Both the position numbers and the translations under genes were made by a program. Positions 30,692 to 63,700 of a stretch of 64,000 nt of DNA are shown here, piece after piece (position 1 is the first letter of the stretch; each line of letters starts with the position of its first letter). The DNA lies in assembly GCF_002161085.1 (NCBI RefSeq), contig NZ_NFLU01000003.1, positions 62,001-126,000 of the forward strand. The letters run 5' to 3'. The stretch comes from Flavonifractor sp. An112. GTDB taxonomy: Bacteria; Bacillota; Clostridia; Oscillospirales; Oscillospiraceae. The notes beneath the pieces are model-generated. The model was not told where the DNA came from, searched no databases, and was given only the letters and a program-made list of their open reading frames with translations.

Positions 30692-30757
30692 TCAGGCGTT
30701 GAAATAATAGCCCAGACCTCTCCGGGTCACTACGAACTGGGGAGAAGTCGGATCGTC
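30692..30757 (-). pseudogene. Remnant of a second walR allele (last ~21 codons)
   Basis: On the minus strand these bases encode SDPTSPQFVVTRRGLGYYF, Asn, Ala, stop, which is the WalR C-terminus with two changes. Against the intact walR end (30931-30994) there are nine base differences in 64. One changes an amino acid inside the compared codons, seven are silent and the stop is TGA instead of TAA. That pattern means the copy diverged while still a working gene, so it is the cut-off tail of another walR allele and not a fresh duplication. Confidence 0.85.
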
Positions 30758-30914
30758 CGATTCCCGGCGGCAGAGCCGCCGGGAGCCCTGGAGATCATTG
30801 CATCTGGCCGGGAAAAGTGAATTTCCCCGGCCATCAAGGATTTGCCCGCTGGGCAAATCGCTTGTACGGCGCAGGCGCCGCCCCGCTGTGCGGGGGCCCG
30901 TGGAGGACGATCCG
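30749..30914. repeat. Multi-hairpin cloverleaf palindrome A
   Basis: A 10-bp outer stem (CGGATCGTCC 30749-30758 with GGACGATCCG 30905-30914) encloses a row of hairpins: 30763-30783 (9 bp, loop AGA), 30806-30832, 30839-30859 (9 bp, loop GCT), 30868-30879 and 30881-30895 (loop TGT). It lies between the walR stop and the walR remnant, just upstream of walK. It shares the layout, and a GCSGTACAAGC core on the opposite strand, with elements B and C near smpB. No protein-coding content is seen. Confidence 0.75.
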
Positions 30915-30930: not shown

Positions 30931-31635
30931 TTACGCGTTAAAATAGTATCCCAGGCCTCTCCGGGTCACTACAAACTGGGGAGAAGCCGGGTCGTCCTCC
31001 ACTTTTTCACGGAGGCGGCGGACGGCCACGTCCACAGCCCGCACGTCACCCACATAGCCCTCGTAGTTCCAGACGTGCTCCATGAGGGCCTCCCGGGAGA
31101 ATACCTTGCCGGGCTGGGAGGCCAGGAATTTGATCAGCTCGTACTCCCGCTGGGTCAGATCCAGGGGGCGGCCATCCTTGCAGACCACCATCTGGTCGGG
31201 ATCGATGGAGATGCGGCCCAGTTCCATCCGGCTGCCGGAGGGGACGGAGGCGGGAGCGCCGGACATCATCTCGTTGCGGCGGATGTTGGCCTTTACCCGG
31301 GCCAGCAGTTCCCGCATGGAGAAGGGTTTGGTGATATAGTCGTCGGCGCCCAGCTCCAGGCCCAGCACCTTATCGGTCTCCTCCTCCCGGGCAGTAAGCA
31401 TGATGACCGGGGTGGAGCGGTTCTCCTTGCGGAGGTTGCGGCACACATCAAAGCCGTCCATTTTGGGCAGCATCAGGTCCAGCAGGATCAGGTCGGGATT
31501 CTGCTCCAGCGCCAGCTGGAGTCCCGCCTGACCATCATAGGCCTCCAGGGTCTCGTAGCCTTCCTTGGTCAGGTTGAAGCTGAGGATGTCCACAATGTTC
31601 TTCTCATCCTCCACAATCAGAATGCGCTTGCTCAT
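30931..31635 (-). CDS. walR: Response regulator WalR
   Basis: WalR is the essential OmpR-type regulator of cell-wall metabolism genes. The receiver domain (1-120) has the acidic pocket EDE, the phosphorylated Asp in LILLDLMLPKMDGFD, and the KPF lysine. The winged-helix DNA-binding domain (about 135-234) ends VVTRRGLGYYFNA. It lies 16 bases after the nudix gene. A remnant of another walR tail follows downstream. Confidence 0.94.
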   Translation of the reverse strand: MSKRILIVEDEKNIVDILSFNLTKEGYETLEAYDGQAGLQLALEQNPDLILLDLMLPKMDGFDVCRNLRKENRSTPVIMLTAREEETDKVLGLELGADDYITKPFSMRELLARVKANIRRNEMMSGAPASVPSGSRMELGRISIDPDQMVVCKDGRPLDLTQREYELIKFLASQPGKVFSREALMEHVWNYEGYVGDVRAVDVAVRRLREKVEDDPASPQFVVTRRGLGYYFNA

Positions 31636-34958: not shown

Positions 34959-35927
34959 TTACACGCTCCCGCCCAGGGCGCACAGCAGCAGGTCCAGGGA
35001 AGGGCAGTTCTTGTAATTCTCCAGCCAGTAGTCCGGGCTGTTGATGACGCCGGCAGCCACCAGGGCAGCCACCCCGTTCTCCGCCGTCTTCAGCCGTGTG
35101 CCGGCCTTCTCGATGACCTGGGCGGCCTTCTTCAGCAGCAGGTCCAGGTACTGGAATTTCTTCGCCTGTTCCGCCCAGTAGTCCGGGCTGTTGATGACGC
35201 CCAGGGCCTCCAGCTTCTCCACGGCAGCCTCCACGGAGTCCTCCAGCATAATGACCTGGCCGACGCGGATCAGGTTCTTGTTCTTGATGGCGTTCACTTC
35301 CACCAGCTTGTCCACCGTGGTGCCGGCGGCGGCCGCAATCTTCGACAGGGTGTCCCCGGCCACGACGGTGTGCGTCTTCGCTTCCTTCGTCCCTCCTGTT
35401 GCCGTTCCGCCCAGCTTCTTCGCAATCTCCGCGAAGTTCGGGCAGATAAAGCCCCTGATGTACTTCCCGTTCACGGCCATGGTCCTGGTTCCGACCTTTC
35501 CGCCCGACATGTTCCCCTCGGTCACCACGAAGGTGCTGGCGGCCGTTTTGGTGACGATGCCGATGTGGTCGGAATACCCGGTACAATCACCCTTTCCGGT
35601 GTCGTCCCAGTCGTAGACGCAGGCGTCGCCGATTTCGGGCTTGTGGGCGTCGTTCTCGATCCAGATCCCCAGCCCCTTGGCAATCTCGACATACTTCTCC
35701 ACACCGCACTCGGTCCCGGTGTACTCCGCGATCCCCGCCTTGATGTACGCCGCGCTGACCGTGGTGGCGCAGTATGCGTCCGTGGTCTTCACGGTGTAGC
35801 CTCTGGCCAGGGGCTTGTGCCCGTTGTAGATGGCCAGGATTTCCAGGTGCTTCGCGCTCCCTTTAGTTGCCCCGACCCAGCTGGTGATGATGTCCGCGAC
35901 CTTCTGCCGCAGGTCCTTTTCTGTCAT
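34959..35927 (-). CDS. Endolysin (CHAP/NlpC-like domain, LysM and repeat region)
   Basis: The 322-residue protein likely cuts peptidoglycan at host lysis. The N-terminal domain (about 1-165) has a Cys in DAYCATTVSA and a His in SDHIGIV, in the arrangement of CHAP/NlpC peptidases. A LysM domain follows (about 186-230: HTVVAGDTLSKIA, RVGQVIML). The C-terminal part has two repeats of GVINSPDYW (about 248 and 300), likely a wall-binding module. No signal peptide is present, so it needs a holin. Confidence 0.85.
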   Translation of the reverse strand: MTEKDLRQKVADIITSWVGATKGSAKHLEILAIYNGHKPLARGYTVKTTDAYCATTVSAAYIKAGIAEYTGTECGVEKYVEIAKGLGIWIENDAHKPEIGDACVYDWDDTGKGDCTGYSDHIGIVTKTAASTFVVTEGNMSGGKVGTRTMAVNGKYIRGFICPNFAEIAKKLGGTATGGTKEAKTHTVVAGDTLSKIAAAAGTTVDKLVEVNAIKNKNLIRVGQVIMLEDSVEAAVEKLEALGVINSPDYWAEQAKKFQYLDLLLKKAAQVIEKAGTRLKTAENGVAALVAAGVINSPDYWLENYKNCPSLDLLLCALGGSV

Positions 35928-37318: not shown

Positions 37319-38026
37319 TCAGGTCATTTTCAGCCAGATGCCGTTCTGCTTCACATACTGCTCTCCGGCGGGTGCGCTTTCCACTGTGTAGCAGCCATCA
37401 CTGTCAGGGCTGTCAGATACATAGATTTCAGAGGAAAGAGCTAAAGCCGGGCGCGGGCAGTAGTTGTTCGCGTAGTACACGCGGTAGTCGCTCAGCGCCC
37501 CCGAAGTATTCACGTAATACGCGTTGCCGTAGTTCGAGCTAGGGGAGCGCAGCCACCAGCTGACCGCTGTCGCGGTCTCGTCATAATAGGCGATTCTGTT
37601 TGCCTGCGACCCCGACAGGTATGTGAACGGTGTTCCTTCCTTTGCCGCTCCGTTCTGGTTGGCCACTTCGTTGCACGACAGGGCAAATCCCTTTCTATAC
37701 AGGTTCACGACGGTGGCGTCCGTATCTCCCGTGATAGCTCCCCTCGCCGTCGGGATCGGGACGTTCACCAGGCACGCCTGAATGATGGGGTCCAACATTC
37801 TCGGGTATTCTACGTTGCAGAACATGTCCAGATCGCTACCGTTGTACCCGTTTCTTCCGCTGTCTCCGCCTTTGAAGGCCTTTGTGGCGAAGCTATCCTT
37901 CCGCAGGACAGTGACTTCGTTTTTTCCGTAATGGTTATACTGGAGGAAGATCAGCTTCTTCGGCTGCCCGTTTTCGTTCAGCTTCAAAAGGTTTCCCGCC
38001 GCCAGGGTGCTGATTTTTTTGCTCAT
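37319..38026 (-). CDS. DGR variable protein 1 (DUF6273 / C-type-lectin-like)
   Basis: This 235-residue protein is the main DGR target. The C-terminal half has the DUF6273 pattern: AVSWWLRSP, AYYVNTSGAL, CPRPALALSSEI. The variable repeat VR1 codes for residues about 153-194; the changed positions are mostly AAC codons of the template turned into Ser, Tyr, Gly, Asp or Arg. The fold is probably the C-type lectin type used by known DGR targets. It starts at ATG 38026 (AAGGAGG upstream), 92 bases inside the reverse transcriptase gene. Tail location suggests a host-binding role. Confidence 0.88.
   Translation of the reverse strand: MSKKISTLAAGNLLKLNENGQPKKLIFLQYNHYGKNEVTVLRKDSFATKAFKGGDSGRNGYNGSDLDMFCNVEYPRMLDPIIQACLVNVPIPTARGAITGDTDATVVNLYRKGFALSCNEVANQNGAAKEGTPFTYLSGSQANRIAYYDETATAVSWWLRSPSSNYGNAYYVNTSGALSDYRVYYANNYCPRPALALSSEIYVSDSPDSDGCYTVESAPAGEQYVKQNGIWLKMT
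37444..37569 (-). repeat. DGR variable repeat VR1
   Basis: These 126 bases match the template repeat 39263-39388 without gaps. There are 12 differences, and all 12 are at positions where the template has A on the coding (minus) strand. The 3' end in coding sense is an invariant GC-rich stretch ending CCGCGCCCGGCTT, the place of an initiation-of-mutagenic-homing site. It is wholly inside the variable protein 1 gene. Confidence 0.95.
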
Positions 38027-39113
38027 TCCTTGCCTCCTTGAAAATTTTGTCTACCCGCTCGCGCAGCTGCTGGCGCAGCACGCGGGTGTCTCCGTGCTTT
38101 GCATGGGCGTTCCACGCTTGGAATCTGTCTTCGATCTCCCTCCGCGTGACCTTGCCCTCTTTGAAGTCCCGCTCCCACCTCCTGATTCTGCGCTTCATGC
38201 GTTTCTTTGATGACTGTCGCAGCTTTCTGATGACTCGCCCGCTTTTTGTCAGGTACAGATGGAAGCCGCAGAAGTCGATGCCGTTCTGAAGCGGGTATAT
38301 CCCGGTCTTCTGGTTTAGTTCATATCCCAGTTCCCTGAACTTCTCCCTGGCCTTTTCCAGCAGCTCCACGGCCTGTTCCTTCGTCTCCACTATCGCGTAC
38401 CAGTCGTCCATATACATGCCCGACATGGGACAGTGTAGGTCCTGGTTGATGTAGTGCAGCGCCTTGGACAGGTAGAACACCGCGCAGATGTGGCTGGTCT
38501 GGTGCCCCAGGGCCAGCCCGTCCACCTGGTCGATGTACTTTTCCAGCAGGTAGCAGAATTCCGGCCCCGGCAGTTTCGGAAATACGACCGCCTTCAGCTT
38601 TTCGTGGTCCGTTGAAGGGAAGCATTTTCTGACGTCTCCCTTCACCACCCAACCGCGCGCGTAGTCCCACTCCTCCATGGGCCTGTATGGTAGCCCCGCC
38701 TTTTTCCTGATTGTCTCGTCCGCTGCCTTCCGGCGCAGGAAGTATGTGCGCATGTGCTTTTCCAGCAGGTCCAGCCCGTAGTGTTGCCCTTTTCCGGTCT
38801 GTGCCGCGAAGGCATTGTACGGAATGGACGGTGCCAGGGCTGGGTACACCACTTCGTCCGTCAGCGCCCGCTGCACGATCTTGTCGCGGAACGACGGTGC
38901 GTTTATGACCCTGGGCTTTGGTTCGTAAATCATAAATTGGTCCAGGGCTGCCGGCTCGTATTTTCCGCTGCGCAGGTAGTTGGATAATGCGATCAGCCTG
39001 GCCGTCTCCCGGCTCTCGAAGATGGCTTCAGCGCGTTTTCCGCGCTTCCCTCGCCGTGTCTTTCGATAGGCCTCGTCCAGGACTGACACGCTGGTAAACT
39101 CTTCATAATTCAT
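37935..39113 (-). CDS. DGR reverse transcriptase
   Basis: The enzyme copies the template-repeat RNA with errors at adenines. It has 392 residues. Motifs seen: VVKGDVRKCFPSTDH (motif A Asp, about 170), GLALGHQTSH (about 210, where DGR enzymes usually have LG-x3-SQ), GMYMDDWYAIV (catalytic YMDD, about 245), and FCGFHLYLTKSGRVIRKLR (thumb side). The His in place of Gln in the fourth motif is unusual. The basic C-terminal tail is encoded over the start of the variable protein gene. No maturase or integrase domain is seen, which argues against a group II intron. Confidence 0.93.
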   Translation of the reverse strand: MNYEEFTSVSVLDEAYRKTRRGKRGKRAEAIFESRETARLIALSNYLRSGKYEPAALDQFMIYEPKPRVINAPSFRDKIVQRALTDEVVYPALAPSIPYNAFAAQTGKGQHYGLDLLEKHMRTYFLRRKAADETIRKKAGLPYRPMEEWDYARGWVVKGDVRKCFPSTDHEKLKAVVFPKLPGPEFCYLLEKYIDQVDGLALGHQTSHICAVFYLSKALHYINQDLHCPMSGMYMDDWYAIVETKEQAVELLEKAREKFRELGYELNQKTGIYPLQNGIDFCGFHLYLTKSGRVIRKLRQSSKKRMKRRIRRWERDFKEGKVTRREIEDRFQAWNAHAKHGDTRVLRQQLRERVDKIFKEARNEQKNQHPGGGKPFEAERKRAAEEADLPPV

Positions 39114-39262: not shown

Positions 39263-39388
39263 AAGCCGGGCGCGGGCAGTAGTTGTTCGCGTTGTTCACG
39301 TTGTTGTTGTTCAGCGCCCCCGAAGTATTCACGTAATACGCGTTGTTGTTGTTCGAGTTAGGGGAGCGCAGCCACCAGTTGACCGCTG
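39263..39388 (-). repeat. DGR template repeat TR
   Basis: The template lies between the Avd-like gene and the reverse transcriptase. In coding sense it is packed with AAC codons (about 14), giving runs such as NSNNNNAYY and GALNNNNVNNANN. AAC mutated at its adenines can give fifteen amino acids and no stop codon. It matches VR1 over 126 bases and VR2 over 109. It is not itself in an annotated gene. Confidence 0.95.
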
Positions 39389-39414: not shown

Positions 39415-39840
39415 TCAGCGCCTGGTCATATCGCTTTTGTACCACGCCGCGCACAGGAAGCGCACGTCCATGGACTTCTGCGTCCAGATCGCCGCCTTGT
39501 GGGCGTCGACGCCGGGATAGGCCTTCGACGCCTTCAGGGCGTTGATCAGGTTTTCAAATACCAGGCACAGGGCCATTATTTCCTCTTGCAGCGCCTGGCG
39601 CTCTTCGCGCTTTGTTTTCAGGCTCTTTGTATTGGCCAGGTAGCACTTGTCCATAATCTCGAAAGTCATATTTTCAAGCCGCTGCCCCGCCGTGTGCCGT
39701 CTGTGCTTTGGGATAATATTCGTATTCCCGATTGCCTCCGACGTGTAGATGTATAGGTCCTTCGCTTTGTTCCCCAGGACGAAGGCGTCTTCCTTTTCCC
39801 GGCTCTCCGGCCGGTTATCTCGTCTTGATGTAGAAGTCAC
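39415..39840 (-). CDS. avd: Avd-like DGR accessory protein
   Basis: Avd proteins are small basic four-helix bundles that bind the reverse transcriptase and the RNA. This 141-residue protein is helical, rich in Lys/Arg, related in pattern to the 23S rRNA intervening-sequence family, and lies 26 bases before the template repeat. The start is GTG 39840, overlapping the tail gene upstream by 26 bases; no ATG is suitably placed. Helices are about 42-62, 65-85, 86-108 and 115-135. Confidence 0.8.
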   Translation of the reverse strand: MTSTSRRDNRPESREKEDAFVLGNKAKDLYIYTSEAIGNTNIIPKHRRHTAGQRLENMTFEIMDKCYLANTKSLKTKREERQALQEEIMALCLVFENLINALKASKAYPGVDAHKAAIWTQKSMDVRFLCAAWYKSDMTRR

Positions 39841-50430: not shown

Positions 50431-52095
50431 TCACCTCAAATATTGCAAAAATTCGTCTTCGTGGTTGTAGTAGCCCACCATGGCGTTCAGTAGACTGACC
50501 GTTCCGTCGATTCGTCTGTTCGACGTGATTTTTTCCGGCTGGATACTGTCGATTCCGCGTTGATTGCTGGCTCTGGCCGCCGTGTTCGACAGACACCACC
50601 GCAGGATCGGGTTGTTCTGGTAGACCATCAGGTGGTCCTCGAACAAACCCTTCATGCGCTTCATCGGATAGGTCCATGTCACCGGCCCCTGGCGGATCTT
50701 CTCCATCTCGAAGCCGGTTTCTGTCATCTGCGGCACCCAGTAGCCGGACAGGGCCGCGTCGTAACACACCCACAGCGGCCTGATGTCCCGTTCCTGGACC
50801 ATTTTCACAAACCAGGCCGTCACGGCGTTGTAGTCCACGGTGGCCGACTCGCACAGCGTCAGCCACTTCTGTTCCGCCCATAGGGTGTATGGCGCTTCCT
50901 TTCGCCCCTGTGTCTGTATTTGCTCGACCCTTGCCTTCGGCAGGAAATACTGCTGGAGTACGTAGAAGCGCGGGTCCTTCGGCCGGCGGATCAGCAGGGT
51001 GGCGCACGTCAGGTCCGTGGTCGCCGACAGGTCGCAGCCGCCGATAGCGTAGGTGTGGTTCAGGTATTCATCCGGCACCACCAGTTCATTCTTCAGCACC
51101 GCGAAGGGCAGCCAGGCCGCCGCCGCGTTTTCCTGAATGTTGAAGTCCTTCACCAGCAGGGTGGGCAGGTAGGACGGGTCGTTCTTCGCCCGCTCGACAT
51201 CGTCGGCCAGCTGCTGCCGGTCCTTGATGGTCCCCAGGCCCGGGTTCGCCTTTTCCCACGCCTCCGGGTTCGTCCATTCTTCCCGGCTGTCCAGCATATA
51301 AAGCAGGGGCAGCATGCGGTCGTCCTGCACGGTTCCCTTTGCCACAGACAGGGCATACTCGAAGATGCTGTCGAAGATCCCTTCCCGCGCAAAGCCTGCC
51401 GTCGTGATGCTGCCATAGATCGGCTGCTTCCTGGCCTTCATGCCCTGCTTCGTGACGTCGTACATGTTCCGGTCTTCCTGCGCGTGCAGCTCGTCGCAGC
51501 TGCAATAATGCAGGTTCAGGCCGTCCAGTGTTTTCGACTTGGACGCCAGGGCCTTCATGGTGCTGTTCGTCAGCTTGAACTCCATGCCGCCCACAATGGG
51601 GCGCACCAGGGCGTCCAGCTCTGGGTCTTGCTCCACGATCTTCCTGGCGGTTTTGTAGACGATGGCCGCCTGGTCGTATTTCGTGGCGATGCTGACGCAC
51701 TGGGCGCCAGGCTCTCCGTCTGCCACCAGCATGTAGACCATGATGCAGGCCGACAGCATGGACTTTCCGTTCTTCCGGGCCACCAGCAGCAGGAACTCCC
51801 GGAAGCGCCGCAGCTTCGTTTTCTTGTCGATCCAGCCGAACAGTGTCTGAATGAAGGCTTTTTGCCACAGGTCCAGCTTCACCAGCTGCCCCGCCAGGTC
51901 TCCCTCGTAGTGCCGGCAAAATGTTTCGATGAATTCTATGGCGTGGTTTCCCAGCTTCAGGTCGAAGCGGTATTTGCACGTCTTGTCCGCCTGTTCTTTC
52001 TCCAGGCGCTCGTACACCATGCGCACCGGCTCGGAGACTTTCACCTTCCCGTCCCGGATGGCGTTCAGGTATCGGCGGGCATAGTTTACGGCCAC
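50431..52095 (-). CDS. Terminase large subunit
   Basis: TerL packages DNA into the prohead. The 554-residue protein has a Walker A-like LLLVARKNGKSML near residue 105 and a Walker B-like NLHYCSCDELHAQED near 195. A nuclease part from about 330 contains GGCDLSATTDLTC with the metal-binding Asp. This is the HK97/phiC31-type large terminase. It starts four bases after the small subunit. Confidence 0.93.
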   Translation of the reverse strand: MAVNYARRYLNAIRDGKVKVSEPVRMVYERLEKEQADKTCKYRFDLKLGNHAIEFIETFCRHYEGDLAGQLVKLDLWQKAFIQTLFGWIDKKTKLRRFREFLLLVARKNGKSMLSACIMVYMLVADGEPGAQCVSIATKYDQAAIVYKTARKIVEQDPELDALVRPIVGGMEFKLTNSTMKALASKSKTLDGLNLHYCSCDELHAQEDRNMYDVTKQGMKARKQPIYGSITTAGFAREGIFDSIFEYALSVAKGTVQDDRMLPLLYMLDSREEWTNPEAWEKANPGLGTIKDRQQLADDVERAKNDPSYLPTLLVKDFNIQENAAAAWLPFAVLKNELVVPDEYLNHTYAIGGCDLSATTDLTCATLLIRRPKDPRFYVLQQYFLPKARVEQIQTQGRKEAPYTLWAEQKWLTLCESATVDYNAVTAWFVKMVQERDIRPLWVCYDAALSGYWVPQMTETGFEMEKIRQGPVTWTYPMKRMKGLFEDHLMVYQNNPILRWCLSNTAARASNQRGIDSIQPEKITSNRRIDGTVSLLNAMVGYYNHEDEFLQYLR

Positions 52096-53338: not shown

Positions 53339-53740
53339 TTACACCTCCCAGGGCGGACGCCATTCGTCCGCTGCGTCTCCATACTCTCCGCGCTCATATC
53401 CTCCGTCCGCGGGCTGCTCCGTCTGTTTCCCGCCGGCGAAGTATGCGTTGTCGACTACAAACTCCACGACAGTGTGGTTCTGGCCGTCCCGCTCGTAGGT
53501 CCTCGACTGGGCTTTCGTCTCGACCACCATCGGCTGGCCTCTTCGGAAGTTCCGGGCTATGAATTCGGCCGTCCCTCTCCAGGCCACAAAGTTCAGCCAG
53601 TCGGTGGCCCTCTGTCCGTCCTGCCCCTTGTAGTCCCGATCCACAGCCAGGCGGAAGGAACAGCACGACGTCCCGCTCCCGGTTTTCCGAAGTTCTGGGT
53701 CGGCAGCCAGCCGCCCCATGAAGATACACCTATTCAGCAT
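53339..53740 (-). CDS. ssb: Single-stranded DNA-binding protein
   Basis: The 133-residue protein has the OB fold pattern of bacterial SSB: MLNRCIFMGRLAADPELR, ATDWLNFVAWRGTAEF, then KAQSRTYERDGQ. The tail ends DEWRPPWEV and not the usual DDDIPF, so the contact with host replication proteins may be altered. It is a phage copy in the early leftward operon. Confidence 0.93.
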   Translation of the reverse strand: MLNRCIFMGRLAADPELRKTGSGTSCCSFRLAVDRDYKGQDGQRATDWLNFVAWRGTAEFIARNFRRGQPMVVETKAQSRTYERDGQNHTVVEFVVDNAYFAGGKQTEQPADGGYERGEYGDAADEWRPPWEV

Positions 53741-53753
53741 TTTTCCCTCGCTT

Positions 53754-54206
53754 TCAGATTTCCGTGATGTCCAGACCCAGGCGGTCGGCCATCATTTTCT
53801 TTTTCATCAGGTACACCCTCGTCCTGGTCGGCTTGCTCTTGACGTCCTCCACCACATACTCCCAGCTTCCTCCGGTGTCTCGGTAGTAGGTGAAGTCCGC
53901 CAGGTACCTGATGGCCCGCACCCTCTCGCCGTCCGGCGTAGTGTACGCCGCTTGCAGGGTGAACTCCACTTGAAGCCGCAGGTCCTTGATGGTCCCGGCG
54001 GCCAGCTCCGCCGCCAGCTCGTCGAAGCGGCGGGCCTCCTTTTTGCTGTCAAAATGCAGGGCGTCCCGCCCGGTCTTTACGTTTCCGTATTTCGACCGGG
54101 CGGGCTGCTGCGTCACCGCTCTTTTCTTTTGCTCCTGTTTCGCCAGCTTGGCCAGGGCCTGGGCCTGGTACTTCGGCGGGAGGTCCGCCAGGTTGATGTT
54201 CGCCAC
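53754..54206 (-). CDS. DUF1064 family phage protein (nuclease-fold-like)
   Basis: From GTG 54206 the protein has 150 residues. It has SKYGNVKTG, FDSKKEARRFDELA and YLADFTYYRD with VVEDVKSKPTRTRVY. The DSKKEA-RF / D-Y / ED-VK arrangement resembles a PD-(D/E)xK nuclease fold, as known for DUF1064. A role in DNA processing is likely but not shown. It starts within one base of the stop of the small Cys protein. Confidence 0.82.
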   Translation of the reverse strand: MANINLADLPPKYQAQALAKLAKQEQKKRAVTQQPARSKYGNVKTGRDALHFDSKKEARRFDELAAELAAGTIKDLRLQVEFTLQAAYTTPDGERVRAIRYLADFTYYRDTGGSWEYVVEDVKSKPTRTRVYLMKKKMMADRLGLDITEI

Positions 54207-54343
54207 TATTTCAGCCCCTTTTCCAGCCACTTGCATTTCCGGCACCTGGCCGCCGTTGTTCCCGTCCTCGTGGGTTTCCCCAGGCAGGTGTTCGCCCCGT
54301 GTGCCAGGTAGCATTTTGGCTTCTTCCGCCGCCGGCGGGTCAT
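54206..54343 (-). CDS. Small Cys-rich phage protein
   Basis: The 45-residue protein starts MTRRRRKKPKCYL and has four cysteines (CYLAHGANTC and CRKC), a possible zinc knuckle, with a basic N-terminus. It begins in an ATGA overlap with the DUF3102 gene and ends in an overlap with DUF1064, so translational coupling on both sides supports it as real. Confidence 0.7.
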   Translation of the reverse strand: MTRRRRKKPKCYLAHGANTCLGKPTRTGTTAARCRKCKWLEKGLK

Positions 54344-57573: not shown

Positions 57574-57948
57574 TTACAGGAAGTCGGCCAGGTTCAGGGC
57601 CACCTTCTTCGCGGCCGGCGGCGTCACCGGCGTGTGGGTCGCCCCGCAGGCTGCCATCATGGCCCGCTCCTGGGCCTCTTCGTCCGTCTGCATGCCGAAG
57701 TATTCGTCTACGGCTCCGAAGACCTGCGCCGGCAGCAGCACGGCATAATTCCCGTGCTTGGCCTTCTTGGCCCGCTCCATCACCGCCGTCATGGCTCCCG
57801 CCAGGGTCTTGCCCTCTTTGGCCACCAGGGCGCCGTCGGTGTCGCTGGTGCAGCGGTCGATGATGTACTGCCCGACGATCTCGGTGTACTGGTCCGTCGG
57901 GTTCTTCTGCATTTCGGTGTTGATTTTCTCGATTGCCTGCATGTTCAT
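57574..57948 (-). CDS. PcfK / AcrIIA9-like protein, candidate anti-CRISPR
   Basis: From ATG 57948 (GGAGGAACAGAAC upstream) it has 124 residues. The N-terminal MNMQAIEKINTEMQKN, the centre GKTLAGAMTAVMERAKK and AVLLPAQVFGAVDEYFGM match in outline the PcfK-like family to which the Cas9 inhibitor AcrIIA9 belongs. It sits between the HUH gene and the PcfJ-like gene. Family membership is my reading; inhibition of Cas9 is inference. Confidence 0.6.
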   Translation of the reverse strand: MNMQAIEKINTEMQKNPTDQYTEIVGQYIIDRCTSDTDGALVAKEGKTLAGAMTAVMERAKKAKHGNYAVLLPAQVFGAVDEYFGMQTDEEAQERAMMAACGATHTPVTPPAAKKVALNLADFL

Positions 57949-58757
57949 GTTCTGTTCCTCCTTCTTCGCCGGGGTGGTGCCTTCTGCTTGACGGGCAGCC
58001 CCGGCGGCTCCACCCGCAGCTCGAAGTATTCCTGCCAGGGCCAGCCGTTGACCTCGTGGACCCCCGACCGGCACGTGGCGCCGTTGTCGTCCTTCAGCAG
58101 CACATACCCCTTCCTGGGGCGCGGCTCCTTTGCCCAGCTGGCGGCCCGGATCACGTGGTAGACCGGTTCCGGCTGCACCATGCCCTTGGCGCAGCTGAAG
58201 CGCTTGTACCGTTTCCCGGCCTCCTTGTGCCTGGCCACGGTGGACCTGGTTTCCTTCATCAGGTACCTGGCCAGCTTCGCGTGGTTTCCTCGCTTGTCCA
58301 GGGGCTTGATGGATATGTTCCCGTTATTCTGGCCGACCACCCGCTCCCAGGTGTTCGATAGGACCGCCACCTCTACGGCCGGCATGATGATGTGGTGGTG
58401 GACATTGGTCATCCGCTTGGTCTCTGTGCATGCGACATACTTCCAGGCGACGCCCAGCTTCCGGCACTCCTTCCGCAGCAGCCGCAGGAATTCCTTCTTG
58501 TCCTCTTCGGCTTGCTCCAGGGTGACCCCCTTGTCGTAGTAGTGCAGGACCAGGTGGTAGTCTCCGGGGGTGAAGTTTGCGTTCAGCTTCCAGCGTAGCC
58601 GTTCCTCTGCCACCCGCTCGTTCACCTTCGCTTGGGCCTCTGATGTCGCCCCCCTGTTTTCCTCCCTTGTCGCTCCCTGTGTATGTACCCTTCCCGTGAA
58701 GGTCTTCAGGGTCTCACGGATTGGACCGGCCTCCACAATGCGCTCGACGTATGGCAC
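57945..58757 (-). CDS. HUH replication initiator-like protein (rolling-circle type)
   Basis: From GTG 58757 (CGGAGGGAA upstream) it has 270 residues. TNVHHHIIMP near residue 140 is the His-hydrophobic-His motif of HUH endonucleases. YLMKETRS near 185 provides the Tyr for the covalent DNA link. WKYVACTETKR precedes it as in Rep motif I-II spacing. A very basic tail ends the protein. No helicase domain is attached. It probably nicks the phage origin to start replication. Confidence 0.78.
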   Translation of the reverse strand: MPYVERIVEAGPIRETLKTFTGRVHTQGATREENRGATSEAQAKVNERVAEERLRWKLNANFTPGDYHLVLHYYDKGVTLEQAEEDKKEFLRLLRKECRKLGVAWKYVACTETKRMTNVHHHIIMPAVEVAVLSNTWERVVGQNNGNISIKPLDKRGNHAKLARYLMKETRSTVARHKEAGKRYKRFSCAKGMVQPEPVYHVIRAASWAKEPRPRKGYVLLKDDNGATCRSGVHEVNGWPWQEYFELRVEPPGLPVKQKAPPRRRRRNRT

Positions 58758-58831
58758 CGTGATTCCCTCCGTTCGCTTTACTAATACCCTTACCGGGGCC
58801 GGAACGCCGTCCCCCGGCGGCTTTGTCACGG

Positions 58832-59521: not shown

Positions 59522-59802
59522 TCGTCATACCTCCAGACTTTCGCGTGGATAATCTCTGTCCAGTCGCATTTCCACACTTCCGCCGCGCACAGGATCGCCG
59601 CAAAGGGGGGCGCGCAGGGGACGATGACCTCGCCCCGTTTCGGATCTACCACCCGGGCCTTGCACTTGTGCGCCCAGCGGTCCCGCCGCGAACGCTCTTC
59701 TGCCATCTTCCTGGTGCGCTGGCGTTCTTCCTCTTCACCAGCCCATGGCGGCAGCCCAGTATTCTGCCCGCTCCAGGACCTTCTGGCTGTATTCGGTCTC
59801 AT
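59518..59802 (-). CDS. Hypothetical phage protein
   Basis: The 94-residue frame starts at ATG 59802 with GGGAGGAAGG upstream, though those bases also code for the preceding protein; ATG 59706 would give 62 residues. The C-terminal part (KARVVDPKRGEVIVPCAPPFAA) is shared by many clostridial phage proteins of unknown role. The overlap with the lysozyme-like gene is 68 bases for the long form. Confidence 0.55.
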   Translation of the reverse strand: MRPNTARRSWSGQNTGLPPWAGEEEERQRTRKMAEERSRRDRWAHKCKARVVDPKRGEVIVPCAPPFAAILCAAEVWKCDWTEIIHAKVWRYDE

Positions 59803-60586
59803 AGATGCCTTCCTCCCAGGCTGCCGCCGCGCCGGACGGCCCCATGTTGTAGGCCATCAGGGCCTTGTGTACGGTGTCTGTGCGTTCCATCTGCTGCGCC
59901 AGGTAGGCCAGGCCGGTGCGGAAATTATCCCTCGGCACCCACAGGTCCGTGGCGCCGACCTGCTCCATCAGGTCCGTGTGCAGGGTCCCATTCACCTGCA
60001 AGTATCCGATGGACGCGCCGCCGTCGCCGGCGACATTCTGGAAGGACGTTTCCACGTCGACCATGCCCAGGGCCAGGGGGTACCAGATGTCGAAGGCGTC
60101 CGCCGCGTTGAACAGTTCCATCTGTTCCTCCGCCGTCAGCGGCACAGCTTCGCAGTAGAATATCGGCTGCACAATTTCTTCCTGCTCCAGCAGCGGCAGC
60201 AGCTGGACGGCTCCCGTGGCGCCCGTGCTTTCCACTTCCGCCGCCGGCTCCGTCTTCGGCTCCGCCAGGACTCTGGCCATGACGATGATCAGCAGCACGG
60301 ACGCCAGGACGGTCAGGGCCGCCAGGGCCACGATGCGCCGGTGCGCCTTCCTGCGGCGGTTCCGCTCTCTGGCCCTCCGCGTCCGCTCCCTGCGCCCCCG
60401 CTCTTCGGCGTCCTCCCTCTGCTTGACGGCCCGCCCCAGCTCCGCCTGGCGGTCTCTGGCCATGTTCAGGTCCCTGTCCATGACCGCGACCTTGTTCTTC
60501 AGGTAGTCCACGTCCCTGGCGATCCCCTCGTACTGCGTCAGGGCGCTGCGCAGGTACTTCTCTTTCCTCTGGCTCATGTCACACAC
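59735..60586 (-). CDS. Membrane-anchored lytic transglycosylase-like protein
   Basis: The 283-residue protein has a basic cytoplasmic coiled-coil start (1-85), one membrane helix (about 88-108), and an outer SLT/lysozyme-like domain (about 145-283). Catalytic Glu is in LGMVDVETSF, followed by GDGGASIGYLQVN and ALMAYNMG. It lies in the early region far from the lysis genes, so it may act in entry, in the lysogen, or in wall remodelling and not in lysis. Confidence 0.82.
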   Translation of the reverse strand: MCDMSQRKEKYLRSALTQYEGIARDVDYLKNKVAVMDRDLNMARDRQAELGRAVKQREDAEERGRRERTRRARERNRRRKAHRRIVALAALTVLASVLLIIVMARVLAEPKTEPAAEVESTGATGAVQLLPLLEQEEIVQPIFYCEAVPLTAEEQMELFNAADAFDIWYPLALGMVDVETSFQNVAGDGGASIGYLQVNGTLHTDLMEQVGATDLWVPRDNFRTGLAYLAQQMERTDTVHKALMAYNMGPSGAAAAWEEGIYETEYSQKVLERAEYWAAAMGW

Positions 60587-60590
60587 TCCT

Positions 60591-60767
60591 TCATTCTCCG
60601 GCCGCTCTGGCCGGTTTTCTTTTGCGGTATTCCTTCAGCCACACCTGGAAGGCCGCTTCTGCCTCCGGCTGCTCGAAGTAGGCCGCCACCCGTTCCAGCA
60701 GGCAGCGGGCCAGGTCATCGCAGACGCCCCGGGGCACCCGCTCGACGTCAATGGCGATTCGCTCCAC
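60591..60767 (-). CDS. Small phage protein (58 residues)
   Basis: GTG 60767 with GAAGGAGG upstream opens a 58-codon frame, VERIAIDVERVPRGVCDDLA at the start and a basic KEYRKRKPAR end. It overlaps the upstream gene by 20 bases and ends five bases before the transglycosylase gene. Function unknown. Confidence 0.6.
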   Translation of the reverse strand: MERIAIDVERVPRGVCDDLARCLLERVAAYFEQPEAEAAFQVWLKEYRKRKPARAAGE

Positions 60768-61113
60768 GGTCTTTGCCTCCTTCCGGGTTTGCCGGCAGTC
60801 CGTTCACGTTCCGCCACCTCGCCACGGTGGACACGCCGCAGCCGGCAATGGCGGCGATCTCCTTGTCCGTCTTCTTCCGGCGGTATAGGTCTTCGACCTT
60901 CCCATAGTCCACCTTCCGCCGGCGGTCTCCCGTCGTCTTCACGGTACACCCAGGGCCTGGAGGGCACGGCCTGCGGTGGCCGACGATGCCGATGTAATCG
61001 CAGCAGCGGCTGGCGGTGAAATAGATGCAGCCTTTGCAGGCTCTGGCCAGGGCCGCCCATTCGGCGTTGATGCGGTCCTGCCGCGCCCTCTTTCCCTGCT
61101 TCCCGCCGCTCAT
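60748..61113 (-). CDS. Cys-rich helix-turn-helix protein
   Basis: From ATG 61113, overlapping the stop of variable protein 2, it has 121 residues. The N-terminal half has CKGCIYFTASRCCDYIG and RPCPPGPGC, a probable zinc site. The C-terminal half is a small helix-turn-helix (KTDKEIAAIAGCGVSTVARWRN). It is likely a DNA-binding regulator translated together with the DGR target. Confidence 0.7.
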   Translation of the reverse strand: MSGGKQGKRARQDRINAEWAALARACKGCIYFTASRCCDYIGIVGHRRPCPPGPGCTVKTTGDRRRKVDYGKVEDLYRRKKTDKEIAAIAGCGVSTVARWRNVNGLPANPEGGKDRGANRH

Positions 61114-61763
61114 TCTCTCCCGGCTCTGTTCCATAGCTCTTTGATCAGCTCCGCGTCGGTGTATCGTGCCAGGGTGCCATCCCCTTCGGCAATCACCGCA
61201 GACGGCACGCTCATAGATACAACGATTTCAGATTTCAGGTAAAAAGCCGGGCGCGGGCAGTAGTCGTTCGCGCTGCGCACGTAGTTGTCGTTCAGCGCCC
61301 CCGAAGTATTCACGTAATACGCGTAGTCGTAGTTCGAGCGAGGGGAGCGCAGGGTGGCCCACCCGGTGGCCAGCCAGTAGGCGCGGGACGTCAGCGGGAT
61401 AAAGCGGCGGTATTTCCTGTATTCGTCCACCGTCAGCGACCGCAGGGACAGTTGCGGCTTTCCGTAGTCCGTCATGCCGTCCATGGTGGTCAGGTCGATC
61501 TCCCGCTCCAGCAGGGCCTCGTACAGATTCGGGCGGCTCTCCGCCCAGTCCTCGATAATGTGGTGCAGGTTGCTTCCCTGGTAGTTGTTCGGCGCTTCCA
61601 CTTCTTCGTCGTTACAAAAGGGGACGGTGTTCGGCAGTGCGTCAGCGGTCACCACGAAGCTGCCTTCGCCGTCATCGTCCAGTTTCACCAGCTCCACGCC
61701 GTCCAGCAGGAAGCTGTATCCGCGCGGTACTCCGCCCAATTCCAGATTGATTTTCATGTTCAT
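61110..61763 (-). CDS. DGR variable protein 2 (remote target)
   Basis: From ATG 61763 (CAGGAGGAAGG upstream) it has 217 residues. The N-terminal half is unlike variable protein 1 (INLELGGVPRGYSFLLDG, then TMDGMTDYGKPQ). The C-terminal part has the same variable cassette: TLRSP, AYYVNTSGAL, CPRPAFYLKSEI. VR2 codes for about residues 138-173. It is embedded in the early operon between a helix-turn-helix gene and small unknown genes, about 22 kb from the template. It lacks membrane or signal segments, so it looks cytoplasmic. Confidence 0.88.
   Translation of the reverse strand: MNMKINLELGGVPRGYSFLLDGVELVKLDDDGEGSFVVTADALPNTVPFCNDEEVEAPNNYQGSNLHHIIEDWAESRPNLYEALLEREIDLTTMDGMTDYGKPQLSLRSLTVDEYRKYRRFIPLTSRAYWLATGWATLRSPRSNYDYAYYVNTSGALNDNYVRSANDYCPRPAFYLKSEIVVSMSVPSAVIAEGDGTLARYTDAELIKELWNRAGRE
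61244..61352 (-). repeat. DGR variable repeat VR2
   Basis: The 109 bases match template 39263-39371 without gaps. Eleven differences, all at coding-strand template adenines. The invariant GC-rich 3' end (CCGCGCCCGGCTT) is the same as in VR1, while the match at the 5' side stops after CTGCGCTCCCCT, earlier than VR1. Differences from VR1 are also at the same class of positions. Confidence 0.95.
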
Positions 61764-62158
61764 GCCTTCCTCCTGTTCTTTTTCCCGTTCTCCGTTCCGT
61801 ACCGGACCAGGGCGGACAGGGCTTCCTCGCCCACGTCCTCGCGCCCCTCCGCCGCCCGCCGCTTCGCACAGCGGGCCAGGGCCTTCTCCCGGTCGTAGCC
61901 GATGGCGGCCGCGTACTTCCCGGCGATGTATCTGTATCTCTCGATGCGGCACTCGATGGCCCCCACCTGGTAGGCGGTCAGCTTGTCCCGCTCCCGCTCG
62001 ATGTACTGCTCGCAGATGTCGGCGTAGTCCTCCAGGGCGTCGCAGATCAGGAACAGGTCCCCCTCGCACGTCCTGATGGCGGAAGGATAAAAGCCCTTCC
62101 GGCCCCTCCGCAGGAACTCCAGGGCCGTCTCCTGGCTCTCCGGCTCCCGGCCGGTCAC
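61760..62158 (-). CDS. Hypothetical phage protein
   Basis: The 132-residue helical protein (GTG start in overlap with the next upstream gene) contains LFLICDALEDYADICEQYIERER and a basic Arg/Lys tail. It directly precedes variable protein 2, overlapping it by four bases, so the two are made together. No known domain. Confidence 0.65.
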   Translation of the reverse strand: MTGREPESQETALEFLRRGRKGFYPSAIRTCEGDLFLICDALEDYADICEQYIERERDKLTAYQVGAIECRIERYRYIAGKYAAAIGYDREKALARCAKRRAAEGREDVGEEALSALVRYGTENGKKNRRKA

Positions 62159-63481: not shown

Positions 63482-63700
63482 TTAAGCAACTTCTTCTTCA
63501 AAAAAAACGGCCGGGTCGATGCCCCACTTCTCGCAAATCTTCCGCTGCTCGGAGATGTAGAAGTCAGAGTATCCATTGATTTTCAGCTGTACCGTGGTTT
63601 CCGATACTCCAATCAATTCGGCCACCATTTTATACGTCACGCCTGCACCGGCAAGTGCCCGCTTCAGCGTAACATACGGGGCGTGTACTTTCTTTTTCAT
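63482..63700 (-). CDS. Cro-like helix-turn-helix regulator
   Basis: The 72-residue protein has a helix-turn-helix of the XRE/Cro type (YKMVAELIGVSETTVQLKINGY) and is the first gene leftward from the lysogeny control region. It is divergent from the CI-like gene at 63850. It probably turns down the lysogenic promoter when the phage enters the lytic cycle. Confidence 0.75.
   Translation of the reverse strand: MKKKVHAPYVTLKRALAGAGVTYKMVAELIGVSETTVQLKINGYSDFYISEQRKICEKWGIDPAVFFEEEVA

Follow-up and report, generated by a model that had tools for sequence, protein, structure and literature searches.

A DGR with two targets in a Flavonifractor prophage: a second variable gene in the early region and its relatives in other phages

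Introduction

The DGR of Bordetella phage BPP-1 (Mtd) consists of a template repeat (TR), a variable repeat (VR), a reverse transcriptase (RT), the accessory protein Avd and adenine mutagenesis, all of which recur in the prophage described here; unlike that prophage, it has a single target, in the tail fibre. A DGR can act on any gene that holds a matching repeat and an initiation site. According to the accessible parts of the respective reports, viral DGR targets of three clades are mostly tail proteins (PMC8144416), and phages Toutatis and Brigit have one target each (PMC5883640). Two targets under one DGR have also been reported, as far as the available text of the sources goes: phages nd4 and nd12 combine a tentaclin with a small DUF6273 protein, tgt2, for which receptor binding was supposed (PMC10743442), and a small DUF6273 second target was found in Lelie and CP11, with its function left open and Roseburia phage Shimadzu cited as a similar case, a likeness that we take from that mention only (PMC11792537). 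The Quimbyviridae have a second, distal and non-structural target in a defence-related island (PMC8008677, published in 2021), and four gut prophages carry a distal second VR near counter-defence genes (PMC12629997, published in 2025), each in the portion of the paper available.

In this study, we analysed a stretch of 64,000 nucleotides from Flavonifractor sp. An112 (contig NZ_NFLU01000003.1, positions 62,001 to 126,000), hereafter the window, which holds a prophage DGR with one template and two targets. Like nd4, nd12, Lelie and CP11, it pairs a DUF6273 protein at the tail end with a small second target of the DUF6273 kind, both served by one template; it differs in that the window's tail-end target is short (235 aa), and the early operon passes without remark in the accessible parts of those two reports (PMC10743442, PMC11792537). 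With the Quimbyviridae it has in common a distal non-structural C-type-lectin second target, for which a role in phage-host conflict was proposed, whereas those are Bacteroides phages with the second target on the opposite strand near methyltransferases, a comparison made by description only and on the available part of the source (PMC8008677). The four gut prophages, likewise compared by description from part of the report, resemble the window in their remote second VR, in being temperate gut phages and in the arms-race reading given to them (PMC12629997). Thiohalocapsa PB-PSB1, too, has DGR targets of the C-type-lectin kind in a context of conflict, and a cytoplasmic location is predicted for some of them; in contrast to the window, these are bacterial proteins, some with STAND NTPase systems, and not phage early proteins, according to the part of the paper at hand (PMC10907252). 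An earlier note on this DNA, made from the sequence alone, had suggested that the second target would be a new use of a DGR. That claim is not supported, as distal non-structural second targets (PMC8008677, PMC12629997) and a small DUF6273 second target (PMC10743442, PMC11792537) are in print even in the portions of these papers available. What appears to be new is a conserved family of early-operon targets together with its Lar and MazG-like fusions; neither early targets as one early-operon family nor these fusions were found in the open-access literature, bioRxiv aside.

The DGR and its two variable repeats

The genes and DGR repeats given for the window below all lie on its minus strand. 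The RT gene (37935..39113; RVT_1 1.4e-9, phrog_1423 7e-92) and the Avd gene (39415..39840; phrog_3206 'Avd protein of DGR', 2.8e-18) adjoin the template in the same element, as in a DGR. Repeat alignment places the part of TR homologous to VR2 at 39263..39371 and the corresponding part of VR1 at 37444..37552, the match of VR1 to the template extending over 124 nt. VR1 belongs to the tail-end target of 235 aa (37319..38026; Pfam DUF6273, E 1.5e-29; phrog_10993 'Hoc-like', 1.9e-24), and VR2 (61244..61352) belongs to the early target, 21.9 kb from TR.

Over 109 nt VR2 differs from TR at 11 positions, and all 11 fall on the 32 template adenines (chance 3.4e-7, a p-value independent of the repeat-finder and alignment biases that affect the relatives described below). 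VR1 shows the same pattern, with 11 of 11 differences at adenines over the same 109 nt and 12 of 12 over 124 nt. The two VRs differ from each other at 12 positions, all of them template adenines, and are therefore separate copies. The adenine-only match of VR2 to a template some 22 kb away, and the supply of two proteins by one template, had both been proposed before and are confirmed by these comparisons. When the template was compared with the full genome (2.96 Mb), it found itself, VR1, VR2 and one further match of 17 bases (E 0.1), which was set aside as noise. Read in the frame of the target, 18 codons of the template contain an adenine; 13 of them are AAC, a codon in which adenine changes cannot yield a stop. 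We have practically no doubt that the VR2 gene is a real DGR target.

Position of the second target in the early operon

Judging from gene order, the 3' end of the window is the interior of a prophage with its genes on the minus strand; a serine recombinase gene and a repressor-like gene, identified by eye, follow on the opposite strand just past the window end. The early location of the VR2 gene rests on the minus-strand order within the prophage, which runs from a Cro-like HTH gene (63482-63700, identified by eye) through small genes, the VR2 gene, an HTH gene, an SLT gene and the replication initiator, and continues with RusA, SSB, terminase, portal, capsid, tail and the DGR (Avd, TR, RT, VR1 gene). 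The VR2 gene (61110..61763, 217 aa) lies about 2 kb from the Cro-like gene and 2.3 kb ahead of the gene for the replication initiation protein (REP_ORF2/G2P; 57945..58829; Pfam 2.7e-9, phrog_3584 2.7e-43). The SSB and Holliday-junction resolvase genes (53339..54314; phrog_44 1e-37, phrog_190 6e-36) come next, and the late block, which starts with the terminase large subunit gene (50431..52095; phrog_9 2.7e-149), separates VR2 from the DGR. Moreover, the stop of the upstream gene (61760..62158) overlaps the start of the VR2 gene (ATGA), and the VR2 gene end is overlapped by 25 nt by a downstream HTH-like gene (60748..61134; HTH matches below Pfam cut-offs), so that the VR2 gene sits inside a tight operon. 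We are highly confident that the VR2 gene belongs to the early operon; the gene order agrees with the proposed setting among small regulators and away from the tail genes.

Some other features of this prophage deserve mention. The SLT transglycosylase gene (59735..60586; Pfam SLT 1e-8) stands within the early block, with the replication initiator on one side and the VR2 gene on the other, an unusual position for an enzyme of lysis or of the tail. PADLOC gave the HTH gene that follows VR2 one weak match, to mad1 (E 2e-4), through its HTH part; we take this as a resemblance between HTH motifs. A repeated segment (34983-35063 and 35133-35213, 78% identical) occurs near the C-terminus of a putative endolysin, and two 63-nt copies, 89% identical and 239 nt apart, are found at 30696-30758 and 30935-30997.

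Family and predicted fold of the VR2 protein

The VR2 protein matches phrog_9958 near full length (residues 9-214, E 5e-48), and the tail-end protein matches the same profile over nearly its whole length (E 4e-22). A Pfam search of the VR2 protein gave no match, the DUF6273 cut-off not being reached; this cut-off is passed by 9 of 10 early-type relatives, the exception being Brigit. The VR2 protein is thus a diverged relative by fold and PHROG profile only. Its AF2 model (pLDDT 86, pTM 0.80, from a 20-row alignment) has one main domain, predicted to be C-type-lectin-like, and the VR falls within it, as in other DGR targets. Modelled residues 6-187 match residues 32-297 of 9qa6, an IgA peptidase of Thomasclavelia ramosa and the closest solved structure (Z 15.7, rmsd 2.6, 172 aligned), and C-type lectins match at Z about 7-8. 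Foldseek alone gave one PDB match below E 0.001; in the viral library it gave 19, with DUF6273 phage proteins among the best. As the matching part of 9qa6 belongs to an IgA peptidase from a gut bacterium, bacterial enzymes contain domains of this fold as well.

The earlier note had given the two variable proteins different N-terminal halves. At the level of sequence this is correct, as BLASTP finds no match between them outside the VR (best E 0.79). However, both match phrog_9958 nearly full length, and the idea of a separate N-terminal body fails against the structure model, which shows one C-type-lectin-like domain and no separate N-terminal domain. The two proteins are, on the model, diverged members of one fold, and not one variable tail on two bodies.

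The common fold bears on the most obvious alternative to a role inside the cell, namely that the early target, despite its early-block gene, is packed into the virion and serves there as another protein for receptor binding or adhesion. The C-type-lectin-like fold and the profile common with the tail-end target speak for this, as does the adenine spectrum, which is the same in both; the variable residues are tyrosine-rich in both as well, with tyrosine in 50 of 159 AAY codons of early targets and 54 of 188 of tail-end targets in 16 phages. It was also proposed for tgt2 of nd4 and nd12 by the authors of the tentaclin paper, in the part of it available (PMC10743442). Early proteins weakly match 'Hoc-like head decoration' through the VR part. 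Against a place in the particle, none of the early targets scanned with Pfam showed an Ig/Fn3 or tail-attachment domain, and in the VR2 protein, with its one modelled domain and its gene outside the tail block, Pfam likewise found no Ig/Fn3 or fibre-attachment domain. PADLOC assigned no defence family to the VR2 protein or to the early-type proteins scanned.

Recurrence in other phages and genomes

In 17 partly unrelated phages, the window's among them, a single template accompanies both a tail-end target and a second target that is a phrog_9958-type gene. Of 50,697 phage records searched by tblastn with the VR2 protein, 12 matched, none of them named a Bacteroides phage. The template search, which did not extend to MT839794 and MT839055, covered five complete phage genomes, and all five could be linked: in Toutatis, Lelie, Brigit and nd4 alike, one template goes with a tail-end target and with an early gene that holds a second adenine-specific VR, and nd12 has two targets too, with nd4, nd12 and Lelie counted among the 17. 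The three unannotated fragments (L068-L070) gave no linked template (3 of 3). In two surveys of the family, with 400 genomes each, 11 and 14 had a match, and in a survey of the order 14 of 394 did, each count including the window's own genome.

We tested 25 bacterial-genome loci with a phrog_9958-type match for a template, the two contigs of G273 being counted once and G160, G758, G588, G473 and G777 being outside the test. Eleven early targets were tied to a template, 10 on the same contig and one, in G273, with template and target on two contigs and 14 of 14 differences at adenines, a count which, like the p-values and base counts of the relatives generally, leans towards a DGR because the repeat finder retains a pair only if A or T of one copy accounts for at least 70-75% of the differences and because mismatches at template adenines are cheaper in the alignment. 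The other 14 of 25 were not counted as two-target cases. G306 was rejected because, with a template present, only 13 of 21 differences are at adenines; G606 has a tail-end target only and G486 local VRs only. On the fetched stretches of G246 contig 89, G009, G109 contig 2, G006, G107, G727, G482, G118, G149, G109 contig 8 and G289 contig 33, several of them short or ending early, no template was found.

The setting of the early target is similar in these phages. A replication or recombination marker lies within 9 kb of it in 13 of the 17; the markers used gave none in nd12, G371 contig 19 and G246 contig 74, and in Lelie, which is not in the 13, one is assumed only by likeness to Toutatis. The nd4 early target overlaps a gene annotated as DNA polymerase III alpha subunit, and that of G109 contig 4 abuts a homologue of the same gene. 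Head or tail markers were not hit in G326. TR and VR2 are 18-41 kb apart in 13 same-contig cases other than nd4, nd12 and Lelie, whose records appear start-shifted, so that their distances are not comparable. No neighbour gene is common to all early targets, the widest cluster being present in 9 of 22 contexts. That early targets stand among replication genes in phages with different replication modules argues further against a virion protein.

Several loci show other layouts. A phrog_24518 gene (L031:10836-11486) lies just upstream of the Toutatis early target and has homologues near the early target in 8 of 22 contexts. DUF6273 genes with VRs near the template, in a layout unlike the early and tail-end pair, were seen in L016, L017, L018, L025, L026 and L027, with two VRs per template in all of these except L025. 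In L080 (G009) and L083 (G006), which appear to be prophage remnants, an amidase comes very soon after the early target and a replication or polymerase gene, and the stretches fetched gave no hit to a structural marker.

Two old families under one template

Once the VR is cut out, the VR2 protein groups with the early targets and away from the tail-end targets. The tree without VRs splits 23 early-type from 19 tail-end targets on one branch (support 100/99); the split is found in all 200 bootstrap trees, and none of 500 shuffles was as low. Six of the early-type rows have no template link (G306, G109 contig 8, G289 contig 33, L012, L028 and L053). The tree leaves out a local multi-VR family and its kin (L016-L018, L020-L027, L029, G486, G032), unlinked or remnant loci (G009, G006, G246 contig 89, G109 contig 2, G107, G727, G482, G160, G118, G149), and L011, L013-L015 and the close relatives L041-L052. 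Long branches belong to the early-type rows G326, G371 contig 19 and G109 contig 4, two of which join each other. Related phages adjoin in both halves of the tree (window with G273; Toutatis, Lelie and G642; nd4 with G534; G289 with G712).

A recent duplication of the tail-end gene is rejected, since the families separate on one branch without their VRs; for the same reason the early target is taken not as a fresh duplicate but as the holder of a long-kept role. Each phage's own template apparently overwrites the VR of its early target.

Variation and selection among relatives

In relatives that are otherwise 93-99% identical, we compared the early gene at adenine columns, at other VR columns and over the rest of the gene. 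Toutatis and Lelie differ at 16/33, 1/71 and 12/544 positions, respectively, and Toutatis and L041 at 10/33, 1/71 and 16/544. The corresponding values for nd4 are 12/25, 2/70 and 7/610 with L043, 14/25, 2/70 and 45/610 with L044, and 9/25, 5/70 and 36/502 with L045; Brigit and L053 differ at 12/30, 2/98 and 17/484. The more distant L042 differs from Toutatis outside adenines too (16/33, 9/71, 58/541). The remaining six of the 13 pairs compared show the same adenine excess. Outside the VR, pN/pS was 0.11 to 0.18 in the four pairs computed, which indicates that the early gene is there under purifying selection in three other phage groups. A VR2 constant in all relatives had been named as the finding that would tell against the earlier note; template adenines are the sites of variation of the early VR in the groups of Toutatis, nd4 and Brigit, and the view of this VR as a constant relic is rejected for these three.

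In the available parts of published reports, both VRs of CP11 vary among cognate genomes and no variation peak was seen at the Lelie VRs in sequencing reads (PMC11792537), and VR2 variation was seen in nd4- and nd12-like genomes (PMC10743442). The window's own phage is represented elsewhere only by an identical copy (L010) and by relatives of near 50% identity, whose fragments yielded no template. Orthologues of the VR2 gene at L013:515-1137 and L014:8965-9578 (L014/L015) have a frameshift inside the VR, from either assembly collapse of a varied population or inactivation.

These data also bear on the possibility that VR2 is a by-product, in which a homologous gene captures copies of the template without any benefit from variation. 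The indifference of a DGR to the gene it acts on, given a matching repeat and an initiation site, would allow this. However, the early family is kept apart, its VR matches the phage's own template in 17 phages, and there is purifying selection outside the VR, and we consider a by-product very improbable.

Fusions and cellular location

The early target of nd12 has DUF3310 in front (PF11753, 2.5e-16), a motif reported in the available part of the original description (PMC10743442), and so has an early-type gene on contig 33 of G289 (2.8e-16); the two are near relatives in the tree, so that the fusion was probably one event. The early target of G371 contig 19, whose 8 differences from its template are all at adenines, carries a MazG-like pyrophosphohydrolase tail (phrog_2245, 1e-17), for which Pfam, NCBIfam and PDB sequence searches gave no match. 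A Lar restriction alleviation domain stands in front in G109 contig 8 (PF14354, 4e-8, 33.8 bits against a cut-off of 28.6; TIGR03655, 33.7 bits, below its cut-off of 39.6; phrog_599, 1e-8), a gene that is sister to the template-linked G246 target (support 94/84), and a WDGH domain stands behind in G149 (PF25311, 7e-40). The Lar and WDGH fusion genes had no matching template on the stretches fetched. Lar, MazG-like, DUF3310 and WDGH are domains of early or cytoplasmic phage proteins, and to our knowledge they are not virion parts. The fusions are therefore the best evidence that the early protein would work inside the cell, and they weigh against its being a component of the particle.

None of 23 early-type proteins (23/23) has a hydrophobic stretch above 1.57 (mean Kyte-Doolittle value over 19 residues); the highest, in G289, is close to 1.6, which is the usual limit. 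The hydrophobicity scan and the domain searches thus support the earlier suggestion of a second protein with no clear sign of export or virion function. In our judgement the early protein probably acts inside the cell and not in the particle, and its packing into the virion as a second adhesion protein is unlikely.

A role inside the cell could also be played in the lysogen, in superinfection exclusion or immunity, with the early protein binding incoming phage proteins or masking a receptor from inside. The nearness of the early target to the repressor/Cro-like switch in the window and in Brigit is consistent with this, as are the remnants G009 and G006, which keep it with one early gene and the amidase and gave no structural marker hit. 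The VR2 gene, however, reads away from the repressor on the lytic-side strand, and early-type proteins have no clear export or membrane signal. We regard activity in the lysogen as quite unlikely.

Proposed role and implications

The reading that we favour, though without great confidence, is that of a two-target DGR whose second product serves as an early intracellular variable binder in phage-host conflict. The RT with Avd would copy the template RNA, misreading adenines, and the cDNA would replace the VR of either target, a step for which the adenine signature is the only support here and the mechanism is taken from other DGRs. The first target, at the tail end, is probably displayed on the particle. 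The second, from a separate old phrog_9958 family in the early operon beside replication and recombination genes, would be a small C-type-lectin-like protein, apparently soluble and produced at an early stage of infection or induction, if gene order is a guide to timing. Its contact surface would be varied to follow a variable partner, most likely a defence component of the host or of a rival phage. We suggest counter-defence in particular with some hesitation. More tentatively still, it is possible that temperate phages keep, in the early operon, a dedicated and hypermutable antibody-like counter-defence binder that acts inside the cell, has its own old lineage, uses the template of the tail-end target and has had effector domains swapped on to it (restriction alleviation, nucleotide pyrophosphohydrolase, DUF3310, WDGH).

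The Faecalibacterium phage Lelie was reported to be active after induction, in the available part of the source (PMC11792537), which makes the question testable, and the Lar and MazG-like fusions offer concrete activities to assay. The main interpretation of phage DGRs is that they switch host range through tail proteins. The presence of a conserved family of second targets in the early operon, across different replication modules, suggests that this machinery is also applied to a protein that likely serves after entry; if the early target binds defence components, its variants would be a natural library for finding them.
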